Under the pieces are notes generated by a model. It ran no database searches. It was given only the letters and a program-made list of their open reading frames with translations, and had not been told where the DNA came from. A stretch of 64,000 nt of DNA from Halovivax cerinus (lineage in GTDB: Archaea; Halobacteriota; Halobacteria; Halobacteriales; Natrialbaceae): NCBI RefSeq assembly GCF_024498195.1, contig NZ_CP101824.1:186001-250000 (forward strand). Direction: 5' to 3'. Positions within the stretch are counted from its first letter, which is position 1, and each line of letters begins with the position of its first letter. Positions 46,662 to 54,876 of this stretch are shown here, piece after piece. The position numbers and the translations under genes are program-made.

Positions 46662-46779
46662 CGGGGGCAAATACGAACGGACGTACCAGATCAGCCGCTG
46701 CGCTCGTTTCGGGCGGAAGTCGTACACGATCACTGACCGGTGTGATTAGTACGATGGGGTGCGTAGCGCTTCGGAAGAG

Positions 46780-47661
46780 ATGGTGAATCGGGTTCCCTAC
46801 CACCACGAGCAGGATGTGCAGTTCTCGGTGGATTTCGTCAGCCCCAATCTGGAAGCGATAGGGGACCGCGTCGTCGGGTACGATCCGCACAAATCGGTCA
46901 AGGTGGAATCGGTCGAGTTAGATCGGACCGTCTACGTCGTCTACACTGCCTCAGGTGCGAGCGGCGCCGCGGACGAGATAGAGTACGATCTCGTCGAGTA
47001 CATCGGCTCGATGGAGCCGGCCAACGCCGTCATCGCGACCAGGTTGGTCGACGTGTTCAGAACCGTCCTCGAGGAGAACTACGAGGAAGAAGGAACGCGG
47101 GTACGAGCGTACAAGGATATCGCAGCCGAGGAGATCGAGCCCGCGCTCAACCAGATCGACTGGACCGGAACCGCGGTCGAGGTAGCCGGGCGACTGGCAG
47201 CAAACTTGATCCTCAAACACGTCCTTCCGAACGCGAACCATCGAACGGCTATCGGGATGAGCCAACTCTACCTCAAGCGGGTGAACCCGGGATTCTCGAT
47301 GCCAGAGACGGCGATCCAGTCGGAGGGGACTGACGAGTACGATTGGATGGCGTGGGTCAACGACTACATCAACGAATCCAAGCGACTCCTGACGGTTCGG
47401 CGAAAGGGTGGCCGGTTCAAATATCTCGAGAAGTTCGGGTGTGACGTCCTCGTGCGAAAGCACGATGTCGAAATCCCGCTCGAAGCGTACGAACTGGATC
47501 TGCAGCCAAGCCAGCGGTGGCGAATGTATGCAAATCGCCACGAAAAGCTGTGGGTCACCTTCACCGGGGAAGCCGTCCGTCGGGCGGGAATGACCGATCT
47601 GCTCGACACTGATGGGCTCACAAAACGCGAATTTGCGGACACACTCAGGGAACTCGGGTGA
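46780..47661 (+). CDS. Fic/Doc-family protein
   Basis: A 293-aa protein from ATG 46780 (a GTG 21 bases upstream is possible). An N-terminal domain (about 1-85) precedes a helical Fic core: AANLILKHVLPNANHRTAIG (about 139-158) matches the Doc-like motif H-x-F-x-D/N-A-N-K-R-T-A, with H, N and R kept and K replaced by H. The C-terminal 100 residues are unknown. Fic/Doc proteins modify targets with AMP or phosphate; Doc-like ones are toxins. The small ORF 3' to it is on the other strand, so no clear antitoxin partner is visible. It separates queE from queC. Confidence 0.7.
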   Translation: MVNRVPYHHEQDVQFSVDFVSPNLEAIGDRVVGYDPHKSVKVESVELDRTVYVVYTASGASGAADEIEYDLVEYIGSMEPANAVIATRLVDVFRTVLEENYEEEGTRVRAYKDIAAEEIEPALNQIDWTGTAVEVAGRLAANLILKHVLPNANHRTAIGMSQLYLKRVNPGFSMPETAIQSEGTDEYDWMAWVNDYINESKRLLTVRRKGGRFKYLEKFGCDVLVRKHDVEIPLEAYELDLQPSQRWRMYANRHEKLWVTFTGEAVRRAGMTDLLDTDGLTKREFADTLRELG

Positions 47662-47663
47662 GG

Positions 47664-47795
47664 TTAGTCCTGCAGACGAGCCACGGTCCGGCCGGCCTCT
47701 TCTACTTCATCGCTCCGACTCATTCCGAGACGATCCTCCAGTTCTCGGATGGAGTCTTCGAGGGTCATATCGGTATAGTGGTCACTCGGAGGCAT
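47664..47795 (-). CDS. Small acidic ORF
   Basis: 43 residues: MPPSDHYTDMTLEDSIRELE, DRLGMSRSDEVEEAGRTVAR, LQD. An amphipathic helix with Glu/Asp/Arg is likely. It ends 2 bp after the Fic gene on the opposite strand and starts about 58 bp inside a (CA)17 tract, so both lie in the same promoter region. It may be an antitoxin-sized protein for the Fic gene, but that is only a guess from position. Confidence 0.4.
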   Translation of the reverse strand: MPPSDHYTDMTLEDSIRELEDRLGMSRSDEVEEAGRTVARLQD

Positions 47796-47851
47796 AAATC
47801 CACTGGTGAGAGTGGCCCGTAATCGCGCGCTGTAGACGCTCGCAACGCTAA

Positions 47852-47887
<36 letters not shown>

Positions 47888-47998: not shown

Positions 47999-48709
47999 AT
48001 GCCCACTAGTCCGGCCACGTCAGCCGTCGTGCTCGCCTCCGGCGGGATGGACAGCGCGACCGCCGCGTACGAAGCCCGCGCCCAGGGCTACGACCTGCAC
48101 TTTCTGCACACCTCCTACGGGCAGCGCACCGAGTCGAAGGAGTACGAGTGCGCTCGCGCCCAGGCCGACGAACTCGACGCCGCGTTCCACCGCGTCGAGA
48201 CGGACCATCTCGCGAGTATCGGCGGGTCGAGCCTCACCGACGAGAGCGAAGCCGTCCCCGATGCGGACGACATCCCCGACGCTGCGGACGCTGACGAAGC
48301 AGCTCCTGAGGCCGTCCCGTCCACCTACGTCCCGTTCCGGAACGCCAACCTGCTCTCGATGGCCGTCGCCTACGCGGAGGCGACCGACTGCGAGGCCGTC
48401 TTCGTCGGCGCCCACTCGGAAGACCACGGCGGCTATCCCGACTGTCGACCGCAATTCTTCGAAGCGTTCCAGCGCGTCGTCGACACCGGCACGGCGGACG
48501 ACACCGAGATCGAGATCCACGCCCCGTTCGTCGAGGCCAGCAAAACCGACATCGCGGCTCGTGGGCTCGAACTCGAGGTCCCGTACGAACTCACCTGGAG
48601 TTGCTATCGCGACGACGAACCGGCCTGTGGAACCTGTGACTCCTGCGTTCGTCGACTCGAGGCGTTCCAGAATATCGACGAACGGGATCCGATTGGGTAC
48701 GGAGAATGA
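47999..48709 (+). CDS. queC: 7-cyano-7-deazaguanine synthase QueC
   Basis: A 236-aa protein. AVVLASGGMDSATAAYEARA is the ATP-pyrophosphatase loop, HTSYGQR follows, and TYVPFRNANLLSMAVAYAEA and FVGAHSEDHGGYPDCRPQFF are QueC motifs. WSCYRDDEPACGTCDSCVRR binds zinc through four Cys. It converts 7-carboxy-7-deazaguanine to preQ0 using ATP and ammonia, for archaeosine in tRNA. ATG 47999 gives the family start; a longer frame reaches back toward the CA tract. Its last 106 bp are duplicated at 51097, and the terminal codons after the repeat (IGYGE) come from this side. Confidence 0.93.
   Translation: MPTSPATSAVVLASGGMDSATAAYEARAQGYDLHFLHTSYGQRTESKEYECARAQADELDAAFHRVETDHLASIGGSSLTDESEAVPDADDIPDAADADEAAPEAVPSTYVPFRNANLLSMAVAYAEATDCEAVFVGAHSEDHGGYPDCRPQFFEAFQRVVDTGTADDTEIEIHAPFVEASKTDIAARGLELEVPYELTWSCYRDDEPACGTCDSCVRRLEAFQNIDERDPIGYGE
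48593..48698 (+). repeat. Direct repeat L: 3' end of queC
   Basis: Identical to 51097-51202 except one T/C difference at 48694/51198. It covers the queC codons from the TW of LTWSCYRDD to IDERDPIG. The two copies are 2504 bp apart in the same orientation and bracket non-que cargo. Confidence 0.95.
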
Positions 48710-48812
48710 CCAGCAAACGAGAAAGATACCCTCAAGAATCATACTTCAGAGTATCATACTTGAGAGTACGATAATAGAAACGCCTAATGTGAGTGGGGGA
48801 CACGGGACCAGT

Positions 48813-50201
48813 ATGAGGAGGTTCGTCAATCGAACCGCAGAGCTCGAGCAACTCCAGGAGCTGTACGAGTCGAACGAGGCCGAACTGGCCGTTGTTTACG
48901 GTCGCCGTCGGCTCGGGAAGACGGCACTCGTCAGGCAGTCGCTCGACGCGTACGACGGGGCAGTCGTCTACCAGGCGAGGCAGAAAACGAGCCGACTCCA
49001 GTTGCAACAGTTCGTCGAAGCGGCCGCGACGGCGTATCCGGATGTCGAGCGGATACGGAAGAACTGGGAGGACGTGTTGCGATATCTCGCCGAACAGGAT
49101 GCAATCGTCGTTCTCGACGAGTTTCCGTACCTGGTCGAACAGGAACCGAGCCTCCCTTCGGTGGTACAGGCGCTGCTAGATCACGAACTCGAGGATTCAT
49201 CGGCTACGTTCGTTCTCGTCGGCTCGTCGATCAGCATGATGGAAGAAGCGGCACTGCTTGGGAACAGCCCGTTGTACGGCCGCTCGTCTGTGAAGCTCGA
49301 TGTCGGACCGCTCCCGTTCAGCGCCGCACTGTCGTTTTTCGACGAAGTCCCATCACCGGCCGAACAGGTGAAAACGTGGAGTATCTTTGGCGGCGTTCCA
49401 TACTATCTCGAGGAGATCGACCCGAAACGGACACTCGAGACGGTAGTGTCTCGGACCATCCTCTCCAGACACGGAACGCTCCACAACGAACCCGACTATG
49501 TACTCCGGATGGAGCTGACGGAGCCCACACGGTACTTCTCGATACTGGAGGCGCTCGCCGCCGGGAAGACCAGCCGAAACGAAATCGCCGGGCAGACCGG
49601 AATCGACTATAACCAGCTCTCGAAGTATCTCGATCGGCTCTCTCGCCTTCGACTCGTCGATCAGCACGTTCCAATCACCGAGCGAAAAGCCCGAAGCAAA
49701 CGGAGCCGATATCGGATCCGAGACTCGTTCTTCAGGTTCTGGTTCCGCTTCGTCTATGGAGCCGCTGCCGAGTACGACGAACTCGGTGACGAAGCGTACC
49801 AAACGCTCATCGAACCCGAGATAGCCGATTTTGCGAGTCGTTCGTTCGAAACGTTGTGCTGTACCGCCCTCCGAACGTTCTATCCCTCGAAGACGGTAAC
49901 CAAGACTGGGCAGTGGTGGTACGACGATCACGAGATCGACGTCGTCGGATTCACCACAGATGGAACGTTGATCGCCGGCGAATGCAAATTCAGAGAATCG
50001 ACGCTCGGGTACGATGCGTTTTCGAAACTGCGTGATCACGTCGACGAACTTCGATGGACGCCTCGCGACGGGAGCGACAGGACCGAAACGTACGCGCTAT
50101 TTTCGAAGAGCGGATTTAGTAACGCCGTCGAGGAAGTCGCCGAAGAGCGGTCAGATCTCAGACTGTTTTCGATCGACGACGTGGTTTCGGCCGTCAGTTG
50201 A
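48813..50201 (+). CDS. Archaeal AAA-type ATPase with C-terminal DUF234 nuclease-like domain
   Basis: A 462-aa protein. FVNRTAELEQLQELY starts the family, Walker A is at VVYGRRRLGKTALV (about 27-40) and Walker B is AIVVLDEFPYL. A middle winged helix (RNEIAGQTGIDYNQLSKYLD) follows. The C-terminal DUF234 part contains HEIDVVGFTTDGTLIAGECK, the D...E-x-K nuclease core. The family is widespread in archaea and often mobile. It is the first gene inside the queC-end duplication. Its stop overlaps a minus-strand RelE remnant. Confidence 0.88.
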   Translation: MRRFVNRTAELEQLQELYESNEAELAVVYGRRRLGKTALVRQSLDAYDGAVVYQARQKTSRLQLQQFVEAAATAYPDVERIRKNWEDVLRYLAEQDAIVVLDEFPYLVEQEPSLPSVVQALLDHELEDSSATFVLVGSSISMMEEAALLGNSPLYGRSSVKLDVGPLPFSAALSFFDEVPSPAEQVKTWSIFGGVPYYLEEIDPKRTLETVVSRTILSRHGTLHNEPDYVLRMELTEPTRYFSILEALAAGKTSRNEIAGQTGIDYNQLSKYLDRLSRLRLVDQHVPITERKARSKRSRYRIRDSFFRFWFRFVYGAAAEYDELGDEAYQTLIEPEIADFASRSFETLCCTALRTFYPSKTVTKTGQWWYDDHEIDVVGFTTDGTLIAGECKFRESTLGYDAFSKLRDHVDELRWTPRDGSDRTETYALFSKSGFSNAVEEVAEERSDLRLFSIDDVVSAVS

Positions 50202-50421
50202 TGGCACCGATATCTCGTCGATGATCCGATTCCCAACACAGCGCATCGCCACCGTCGGTTTCAGTCACACCGCCGTCATCGCGGTGACCATCTTCGGTTC
50301 CTCCGTCGTTCTGCTGGCAGTCGATGAGAACGCGATAGTCACCGACACGGAGGACGTAGTCATCGCGCCCGGTCAGCGGCTTCAGGAAGTGGTCGAGCCA
50401 GTCGCGAATCTCGCGTAGTTT
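50194..50421 (-). pseudogene. RelE/ParE-type toxin remnant
   Basis: Minus-strand frame KLREIRDWLDHFLKPLTGRD followed by DYVLRVGDYRVLIDCQQND and, after an acidic low-complexity insert, ESDHRRDIG to a stop at 50194. The core DYVLRVGDYRVLID is the C-terminal half of RelE-family toxins. There is no N-terminal half and no antitoxin. Confidence 0.6.
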
Positions 50422-50650
50422 TGTGGTGATCCGATCTGTTGTAGAACGAGTTCCTGTCCGAACGCCTGCCGAACGTGGCCGTGAGAGGTGGGCACGGTCC
50501 GTTCGCGTACAGTGCAGCCTGGGCGACGTGAAAGGCGGCGTAGTACAGGCGGTTCACGACACCGGCTCGAGTTCTTTTACGTGGGTGGAGAATCAGGGCG
50601 TCGGCGAGCGCATCACGTGCCAATTCCAGTTCAGCGGAGGGATCACCCGC
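50382..50650 (-). pseudogene. HEPN protein with frameshift
   Basis: One frame reads AELELARDALADALILHPRK and VVNRLYYAAFHVAQAALYAN, the usual HEPN front. Near 50500 the frame changes to SHGHVRQAFGQELVLQQIG, the expected continuation, and stops at 50382. The gene is therefore broken and lacks its last helix. No ATG start is present (TTG 50623 is possible). It directly follows the nucleotidyltransferase gene, its normal partner. Confidence 0.65.
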
Positions 50651-50651
50651 G

Positions 50652-51023
50652 TCAGCCAGACAACGTCTGTCCGGTTCGGGTTACTGTCCGAACGAACGGT
50701 TTATTCTGGTCGCGTTCGAGCGCCGATCGCGTCCGTACGACCTGCGAAAGGACGACGCCGTAGTCGAGTTCGATGTCGTACGCGAAAGCACGGATGTCCG
50801 TCGTAACGCGCGACTCGTCGGCGTCGTCCGAGAGGACGACGAGTAAGTCGACGTCAGAATCGACACCCCGTTCGTCCCCGCGGACGACGCTGCCGAAGCG
50901 GTGGATCGCCTCGAGTTCGTCGTCGAATCGATCGCGTACCGCTCGGCCGAAGGCCTCCGCCGCCCGTCTGTGCGTCGTCTCGGCAGGCGGTTCCATACTG
51001 TGTCGTTCGAGTCCAACTGACAT
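50652..51023 (-). CDS. MNT-type nucleotidyltransferase (antitoxin)
   Basis: A 123-aa protein from ATG 51023 (ATG 50996 also possible). It has IHRFGSVVRGDERGVDSDVD and LLVVLSD, the GSxxxGxxxxxSDxD catalytic motif of minimal nucleotidyltransferases. It is the partner type for the HEPN gene just downstream, which is frameshifted. So an antitoxin is left without an intact toxin. Confidence 0.8.
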   Translation of the reverse strand: MSVGLERHSMEPPAETTHRRAAEAFGRAVRDRFDDELEAIHRFGSVVRGDERGVDSDVDLLVVLSDDADESRVTTDIRAFAYDIELDYGVVLSQVVRTRSALERDQNKPFVRTVTRTGQTLSG

Positions 51024-51096
51024 AAATCCTCGTCGGCAGATCCACCGCTCCAGTTCTGACTGGCGCCTCCACACCTCCGACCAGCTTATGACCACT

Positions 51097-51202
51097 ACCT
51101 GGAGTTGCTATCGCGACGACGAACCGGCCTGTGGAACCTGTGACTCCTGCGTTCGTCGACTCGAGGCGTTCCAGAATATCGACGAACGGGATCCGATCGG
51201 GT
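51097..51202 (+). repeat. Direct repeat R: second copy of queC 3' end
   Basis: Same sequence as 48593-48698 with one substitution. It is not preceded by the rest of queC, so it codes for nothing by itself. The end runs on as GSGTVAAWRTG instead of the queC stop. Confidence 0.95.
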
Positions 51203-53028: not shown

Positions 53029-54876
53029 TTACTGTCCGAGTTCGTCGACGGACAGCGTGTAGTTACCGCTTCCCGAGTACGCGTCGACCAGCAGGCCGAG
53101 TTCCTCGTCGCCGGAGAGGTCGACCGTGATCTCCTCCTGGCTGTTCGACGAGTACGACGCCTCGTCGTAGTCGTAGGTCGTCGGCGTCCGACCGTCGAGC
53201 GTGAGGTAGAGGTCGAAGTCGGAGTAGGTCGGGCCGGAGAGCGTGACCGTCGCCTGGCACGGGTTGGCCGTGTCGAGCGTGTAGGTGTAGCTCTCGCTGC
53301 CGTTGCCCCACCAGCCGCCGCTCAGGTAGCCCGAGACGGAGTCCGAACTCGTCTCGGCACCGCACTGGCCGCCACCGCCGTCGCCCCCGACGGCGACCGA
53401 CTGTCGCGCCGTGTCCGAGGTGCCGTTGTCGCCCGTGACCGTGAGTTCGACCGTGTACTCGCCCTCCTCGCGGTAGCTATGGGAGGCCGTCTGGCCGGAA
53501 CCGGTCGCCCCGTCGCCGAAGTCCCACTGGTAGCCGCGGATGCGGCCACCCTCGGGCGGCTGAGACGCGCTCCCGTCGAAGCTGACGGTCTCACCTGCCT
53601 CGGGGTCCGAGGGACTGAAACTGAAGCTGGCCGACGGCTGCTCCGGATCACCGCCACCGCCGCCCTCGACGATGTTCGCGGCGTCGACACGACCCGAACC
53701 TTGCTGGTCCGAGGGGAGACCGATGTCGACGGCCGTCTCCTCCAGCAGGTCCCAGAGTTCCTGTACCGACAGGTCGGGGTGGGCGGACTTGCCGAGCGCG
53801 GCGACGCCGGAGGCGACCGGACACGCCATCGACGTCCCCGACATCGTCGTGTACCCGCCGCCGGGGACCGGCGCGAGCACGTCGACGCCCGGCGAGGCGA
53901 CGTTGATCTCCGGGCCATAGTTCGAGAAGTTCGCGATGTTCTCGTTCTCGTCGATCGCGGAGACCGCGACACAGTTGTCGTACGCCGCAGGGTAGCTCAC
54001 CGGCGAGCCGTAGTCGTTGCCCGCGGCCGCGATCGGCAACGTGCCGTTTTCGTACGCGTAGTTGATCGCCTGGCGACCCGTCTGGCTGGCGCCGCCACCA
54101 CCGAGTGACATGTTGACGACGTCCGCCCCCTGGTCTGCGGCCCACTGAATCGCGTCGGCGATGTCTGACATCGAGCCGCTGCCGCCCGACCCGAGGGCGC
54201 GCCCGGAGATGAGCCGACAGTTCGAGATACCCGCGGTCCCGTCGCCGTTGTCGGTCGTCGCGGCCGCACAGCCGCCGACGTGTGTGCCGTGATTCTCCGA
54301 GTTGGTCACCGGCGCCGGATCACTGTCGTTGTCGACGAAGTCGTACCCCTCGGTACCCTGGAAGCGCGCCTGGAGATCGGGGTGCGTGTAGTCGACGCCC
54401 TGGTCGACGACCGCGATGGTGACGTCCATCGATCCCATCTCGGTGTCCCAGGCTGTATCCGCGTTGACCAGCTGTGGCGCGTACTGCGAGCCGAACTGCG
54501 GGTCGTTCGGCTGGGAGAACGCGTGCCAGGTCTCGTTGCGTTCTGCGTACTCGATTCCGGGCTGGCGTTCGAGCCGATCGATGACCGAGTCCATCGCGCT
54601 TGGGCCGTCGTCGGGTACCTTGACCGCCACGTACCCGAGCGTGCTGTTTTCGTGGACGACAGACGCGTCCGACGGGATCGCCGACTCCACCGTTGCACGC
54701 GCGCTCGCGATACCGACGGTGTCGCTCTTCCCGACGAGGATCTCGTCCTCCTTCGGTCCGGGTTCGCGTCCGGGCGTGGCGGAGACGACGCCACCCAACC
54801 CGAGGAACGCACCGGCCGCACCGGCCGCTTCGAGAACTGTTCTCCGACCGACATTGTGGGAGCCATTATCTGACAT
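53029..54876 (-). CDS. Tat-exported subtilase (halolysin-like) 1
   Basis: A 615-aa preproprotein. [20 protein letters not shown] is a twin-arginine signal. An I9-type propeptide (about 45-120) keeps it inactive. In the S8 domain the triad is D158 ([11 protein letters not shown]), H196 (NHGTHVGG) and S349 (GTSMACP), with oxyanion Asn287 (AAAGND). A PKD domain (about 418-505, ending [19 protein letters not shown]) and a C-terminal PPC-like domain (about 505-615, with [12 protein letters not shown]) follow. Transcription ends at an oligo-T run. It is nearly the same as the gene at 55290. Confidence 0.92.

Follow-up and report, generated by a model that had tools for sequence, protein, structure and literature searches.

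The window, a 64,000-nt stretch of the Halovivax cerinus genome that forms part of one 3.9-Mb contig, carries an intact queC gene whose 3' end recurs downstream (Table 1). A repeat search recovered the two copies as 106 nt with a single mismatch (99% identity) at a spacing of 2504 nt, as an earlier sequence-only reading of this DNA had claimed, and the length of the repeat is in itself enough to rule out chance. No further copy is present in the 3.9-Mb genome, where the next best match in a genome-wide search is 20 nt of exact identity. The intact gene uses copy 1, and copy 2 begins at about -113 nt, near the left edge of other Halovivax cassettes. The C-terminal tail of the window QueC (YGE) is shorter than those of Halovivax G003 and G004 and of Halorubrum. 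Set against the 74-86% identity between queC-end copies in congeners, the near-perfect agreement seen here suggests that both window copies were recently made alike, via either insertion or conversion.

Table 1. Features of the queC locus in the Halovivax cerinus window (positions are those of the window).
Feature	Position	Strand	Basis
queC (7-cyano-7-deazaguanine synthase), anchor gene, intact	47999..48709	+	Translation; 82-87% identity to QueC of three congeners
queC 3'-end copy 1, within queC	48593..48698	+	Repeat search
Candidate defence cargo, ATPase_2 + DUF234 protein	48813..50201	+	Pfam; PADLOC PDC-S27, E 1e-46
RelE/ParE-like toxin remnant	50238..50442	-	88% identical to second cassette of Halovivax asiaticus
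HEPN toxin pseudogene	50443..50660	-	Alignment with H. asiaticus gene; intact homologue is Pfam HEPN
MNT antitoxin (nucleotidyltransferase), intact open frame	50652..50996	-	NTP_transf_2 (Pfam); PADLOC PDC-S09
queC 3'-end copy 2, distal bare fragment without the remainder of queC	51097..51202	+	Repeat search

Between the two copies, the DUF234 ATPase matches PDC-S27, a candidate-defence family of PADLOC. The intact homologue of the RelE remnant has a weak ParE_toxin match that falls under the Pfam cut-off. Compared with the intact H. asiaticus gene, the HEPN gene has lost its start codon, carries a 1-nt deletion and has its 3' end cut off at the point where it is fused directly to the RelE remnant. 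The cargo given by the sequence-only reading holds, with the correction that the HEPN gene of the HEPN/MNT pair is broken; MNT is intact. The HEPN/MNT part is 90% identical to the first cassette of H. asiaticus; relative to that species, the HEPN/MNT and RelE parts occur in reversed order and fused, and the queC end between them is missing. Judged by these alignments, several decayed cassettes have been joined in the 2.5-kb segment; congeners have them separately and in another order.

Two further features were observed near the locus. The DNA between queE and queC (window 46759-47885) contains a 300-aa frame whose HVLPNANHRTA motif resembles Fic/Doc, a small opposite frame and a (CA)n run; neither frame has a Pfam match, and the region is possibly another toxin-antitoxin (TA) insertion inside the archaeosine gene cluster. 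Downstream of the array (window 53029-54876 and regions L026 and L029), there are subtilisin-like genes, with tandem copies of about 80-87% identity in Halovivax.

The same site is occupied elsewhere in the genus. In a QueC search, four of the five Halovivax species examined had additional queC 3' ends downstream of the gene (two each in H. asiaticus and G004, one each in G003 and G000), and G002 had no extra fragment. The segments between queC ends in congeners measure 0.6-1.2 kb and differ by species: H. asiaticus has HEPN/MNT first and then a RelE/ParE-like pair, G004 has an HTH gene with a PIN gene followed by a DUF7342 HTH gene with a TumE-like protein, and G003 has a MarR-like HTH gene with a MazF/PemK-looking frame, the latter judged by eye and without a Pfam match. 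Across the Halovivax and Halorubrum cassettes, two-gene TA operons (HEPN/MNT, HicA, TumE, PIN with HTH partners) are found, with the TumE and ParE matches lying under the Pfam cut-off. The left edge of the fragment is at about -113 nt in three distinct Halovivax cassettes, and one G004 copy extends further. Among 125 genomes of the family, such fragments occur only in Halovivax, and the remaining family has empty sites. The sequence-only reading took the repeat for the trace of an integrative element. Its picture holds insofar as the queC end is duplicated, empty sites are present across the rest of the family and other cargo sits at the queC 3' end in congeners. However, this spread across the genus contradicts a single 2.5-kb insertion peculiar to one genome, and the segment is not one integrative element but the fused remnant of several cassettes.

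Outside these two genera the site is usually empty: among 392 genomes of the order, Halorubrum, which belongs to another family than Halovivax, stands out for queC fragments, and a 170-genome family search found extra fragments to be essentially limited to this genus. A queC match was obtained in 32 of 52 Halorubrum genomes, with more than one match in 17 of the 32 and a maximum of nine. In a few cases the additional match is another complete queC gene; extra 3'-terminal fragments, up to eight, are carried by about half of the queC-bearing genomes. The right edge of these copies is nearly always the queC stop codon. The left edge is specific to the cassette and can lie anywhere from nt 284 to nt 636 of queC, a span of about 350 nt, which is unlike a classical att core. 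In the same genus, H. ezzemoulense has a further full-length queC that is divergent and oppositely oriented, and Halorubrum sp. BOL3-1 seemingly has queC fragments only and no full gene (regions L089 of G424 and L079 and L076 of G382 for both). Across about 1.05 Mb of regions, a script counted 52 queC repeat pairs and 38 other gene-end repeat pairs, three of the 38 being queC pairs in a duplicate record.

Individual Halorubrum cassettes recur in different contexts. Cassette A (about 1.09 kb; DUF7342 + TumE) has different upstream neighbours: a HerA-type fragment in G427 and G186, cassette B in G230, cassette C (HicAB) in G420 and, immediately adjacent, native queC in G426. In segment comparisons its copies match over their whole length, from the first bases past the stop codon up to the point where the next fragment begins. 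Cassette B is found directly behind native queC in G172 (plasmid pHrrPV6 of Halorubrum sp. PV6) and in G434, and in mid-array in G230. In several species, a Mre11-Rad50-NurA-HerA operon, which may be either repair or defence cargo, stops a few bp short of a queC fragment, with different modules following, and several cassettes are minimal TA operons just 5-20 bp from the fragment. The junctions are combinatorial: over 68 copies, nine downstream modules each occur behind two to five different upstream contexts. Cassettes A and C are 95-97% identical among G230, G186 and G427, whose queC genes are 88-93% identical; for cassette A of G426 and G420, no such excess over queC is seen. Relatives of cassettes A and C are also present at other Halorubrum genome sites that have no queC fragment, so the array draws on a shared pool of TA modules and is not their sole vehicle. 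The sharp ends of cassette A at other sites raised the idea that it is a mobile unit, which we rejected because the ends fall at the stop codon of the toxin gene and at the promoter of the antitoxin and are explained by function. Two side observations concern these regions: a metallo-beta-lactamase-fold gene lies just upstream of the Mre11-Rad50-NurA-HerA operon (region L068, 9545-17200, and homologous Halorubrum regions), and an IS200/IS605 element (tnpA + TnpB) lies within cassette B, directly behind queC, on pHrrPV6 (region L136, 9406-11030).

The queC fragments themselves carry some record of where exchange took place. Copies that share the downstream module and differ in the upstream one were alike on the right and different on the left in 54% of pairs, versus 21% for unrelated pairs. 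The change points cover about 70 bp of the fragment, from about 86 nt to about 16 nt ahead of the stop codon. This pattern, with its variable change points, fits recombination inside the queC homology and hence homologous recombination. A single crossover position was considered and discarded, as the change points are scattered. The mirror control, however, lacked the expected pattern, copies with the same upstream module being not more alike on the left, so the test does no more than lean toward homologous recombination.

On sequence grounds, we regard the array at queC as established; it resembles an integron-like site for collecting genes in which no integrase is visible. As to its origin, we propose, with a probability of roughly 0.6, that modules with a piece of the queC 3' end attached enter this TA/defence cassette array and are shuffled in it by recombination within that homology. 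The 3' end of queC would be the anchor, and each cassette would consist of a small module, TA or defence, with a 3'-terminal queC fragment behind it. DNA carrying both would recombine either at the 3' end of queC itself or at a fragment already in the array. The 3' end of queC would stay complete, the new module would come to lie immediately after the stop codon, and a fragment would remain downstream as a new target. Repeated rounds could then build, shuffle and delete cassettes, and TA cargo would make loss costly. For this scheme we infer a circular or incoming intermediate, with homologous recombination as the engine. Several points count against this proposal: the homology measures only about 100 bp, with 74-93% identity in most arrays, and is short for efficient homologous recombination; the mirror control failed; cassette relatives at sites without a queC fragment show that the TA modules do not depend on this route; and the shared left edge of three different Halovivax cassettes fits a fixed site better.

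That shared edge is also part of the case for a trans-acting site-specific recombinase. Such an enzyme would be a tyrosine recombinase whose gene lies elsewhere or on an unsampled helper element, with the queC 3' end as its attachment site and the cassettes as integron- or satellite-like passengers. Restoration of a gene end is typical of integrative elements with a site-specific recombinase, the right edge in Halorubrum falls precisely at the stop codon, and the genomes do hold 3 to 18 tyrosine recombinases each at other locations. We nevertheless consider this explanation rather unlikely. Tyrosine recombinases (PF00589) are absent from the window, where the sequence-only reading had likewise seen no integrase left, from the examined segments and from the surroundings of every array, and the integrase that this reading had envisaged as a partner of the queC-end site was not found in those segments. 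Serine recombinases (PF00239) are absent from the four Halovivax genomes searched and from the Halorubrum arrays. The wide span of left edges in Halorubrum and the lack of one common change point also speak against a recombinase acting at a defined site, as does the absence of attC-like single-strand folding in the two window copies on both strands (z-scores 0.47 to -1.36). In viral contigs, DNA-pattern scans for the queC 3' end gave no match, and a peptide scan gave six distant relatives (36-59% identity), none of the haloarchaeal type. Between the two engines, homologous recombination is therefore favoured by about two to one.

Plasmids provide the material for a third explanation, in which a plasmid with a whole queC integrates by homology at the chromosomal gene, after which the second queC decays from its 5' side and the TA/defence genes survive. 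The haloarchaeal plasmid matches listed are nearly all annotated as queC, many of them full queC; among these matches, pHrrPV6 is the only plasmid or phage with a second site, and it carries a queuosine-type gene cluster plus an array. Copies can span as much as about 400 nt of queC, and in cassette C older, internally deleted queC sequence seems to be present. We find such an origin improbable, since the fragments are almost only 3'-terminal and 5' fragments were not seen, several cassettes are the minimal, closely abutting TA operons described above, and the reuse of one cassette behind different fragments would go unexplained. Finally, neither a mere tandem duplication at the queC end nor an artefact of assembly has anything but the repeat itself in its favour, and both can practically be dismissed: the former is refuted by the empty sites and different cargo at the same queC end in relatives, cargo and copy divergence differ per species, the genomes are complete single contigs, and the flanks are unduplicated.

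The queC array points to a hot spot at which archaea gather TA and defence genes, with an anchor and junctions that can be read in the sequence, and queC 3' ends could serve as a marker for finding new TA or defence modules. If the engine is homologous recombination, this would amount to integron-like gene collecting without an integrase, for which any gene end could serve. More tentatively, and at somewhat less than even odds, the array may represent an integrase-free system in which short fragments of one conserved housekeeping gene act as interchangeable homology tags, such that TA and defence modules are collected, shuffled and shared across haloarchaeal species by homologous recombination and the anchor is always restored. 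The proposal is testable in cultivable haloarchaea with good genetics. A search of the open-access literature, which is not proof of novelty, found no earlier description of queC as an integration site, as an island anchor or in Halovivax.

Several known systems share features with the queC array. In Staphylococcus, SCC elements sit at the 3' end of rlmH and carry ccr serine recombinases. Like the queC array, they are anchored on an RNA-modification gene with a restored 3' end and form tandem cassettes and remnants, but they differ in those ccr enzymes, a class seen neither in the Halovivax genomes searched nor in the Halorubrum arrays. Tyrosine-integrase elements that enter a protein-coding gene and restore its 3' end also duplicate the gene end at both borders and leave the gene intact; the queC array differs from them in having no integrase, cassettes as small as 0.6-1.2 kb and a variable left edge in Halorubrum. 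Within Halorubrum, the homeocassettes of H. ezzemoulense are mutually exclusive islands exchanged through conserved flanking core genes (PMC11078007) and thus, like the array, islands at one position swapped by recombination; queC, toxins and direct repeats are all unmentioned in that paper. Integrons have been described in archaea, in a paper from which haloarchaea and queC terms are absent (PMC9668308). They rely on a folded attC where the queC array has the 3' end of a host gene, on a nearby IntI where the array has none (PF00589 is absent in the examined segments) and on attI, in place of queC, as anchor. Nevertheless, exchangeable cassettes bounded by one type of site are a defining feature of integrons that the queC array has, and both integrons and CALINs (including the archaeal ones; PMC9668308) resemble it in their small mobile cassettes with one recombination sequence each, reordered between genomes and carrying TA cargo, with CALINs sharing, in addition, the lack of an adjacent integrase.
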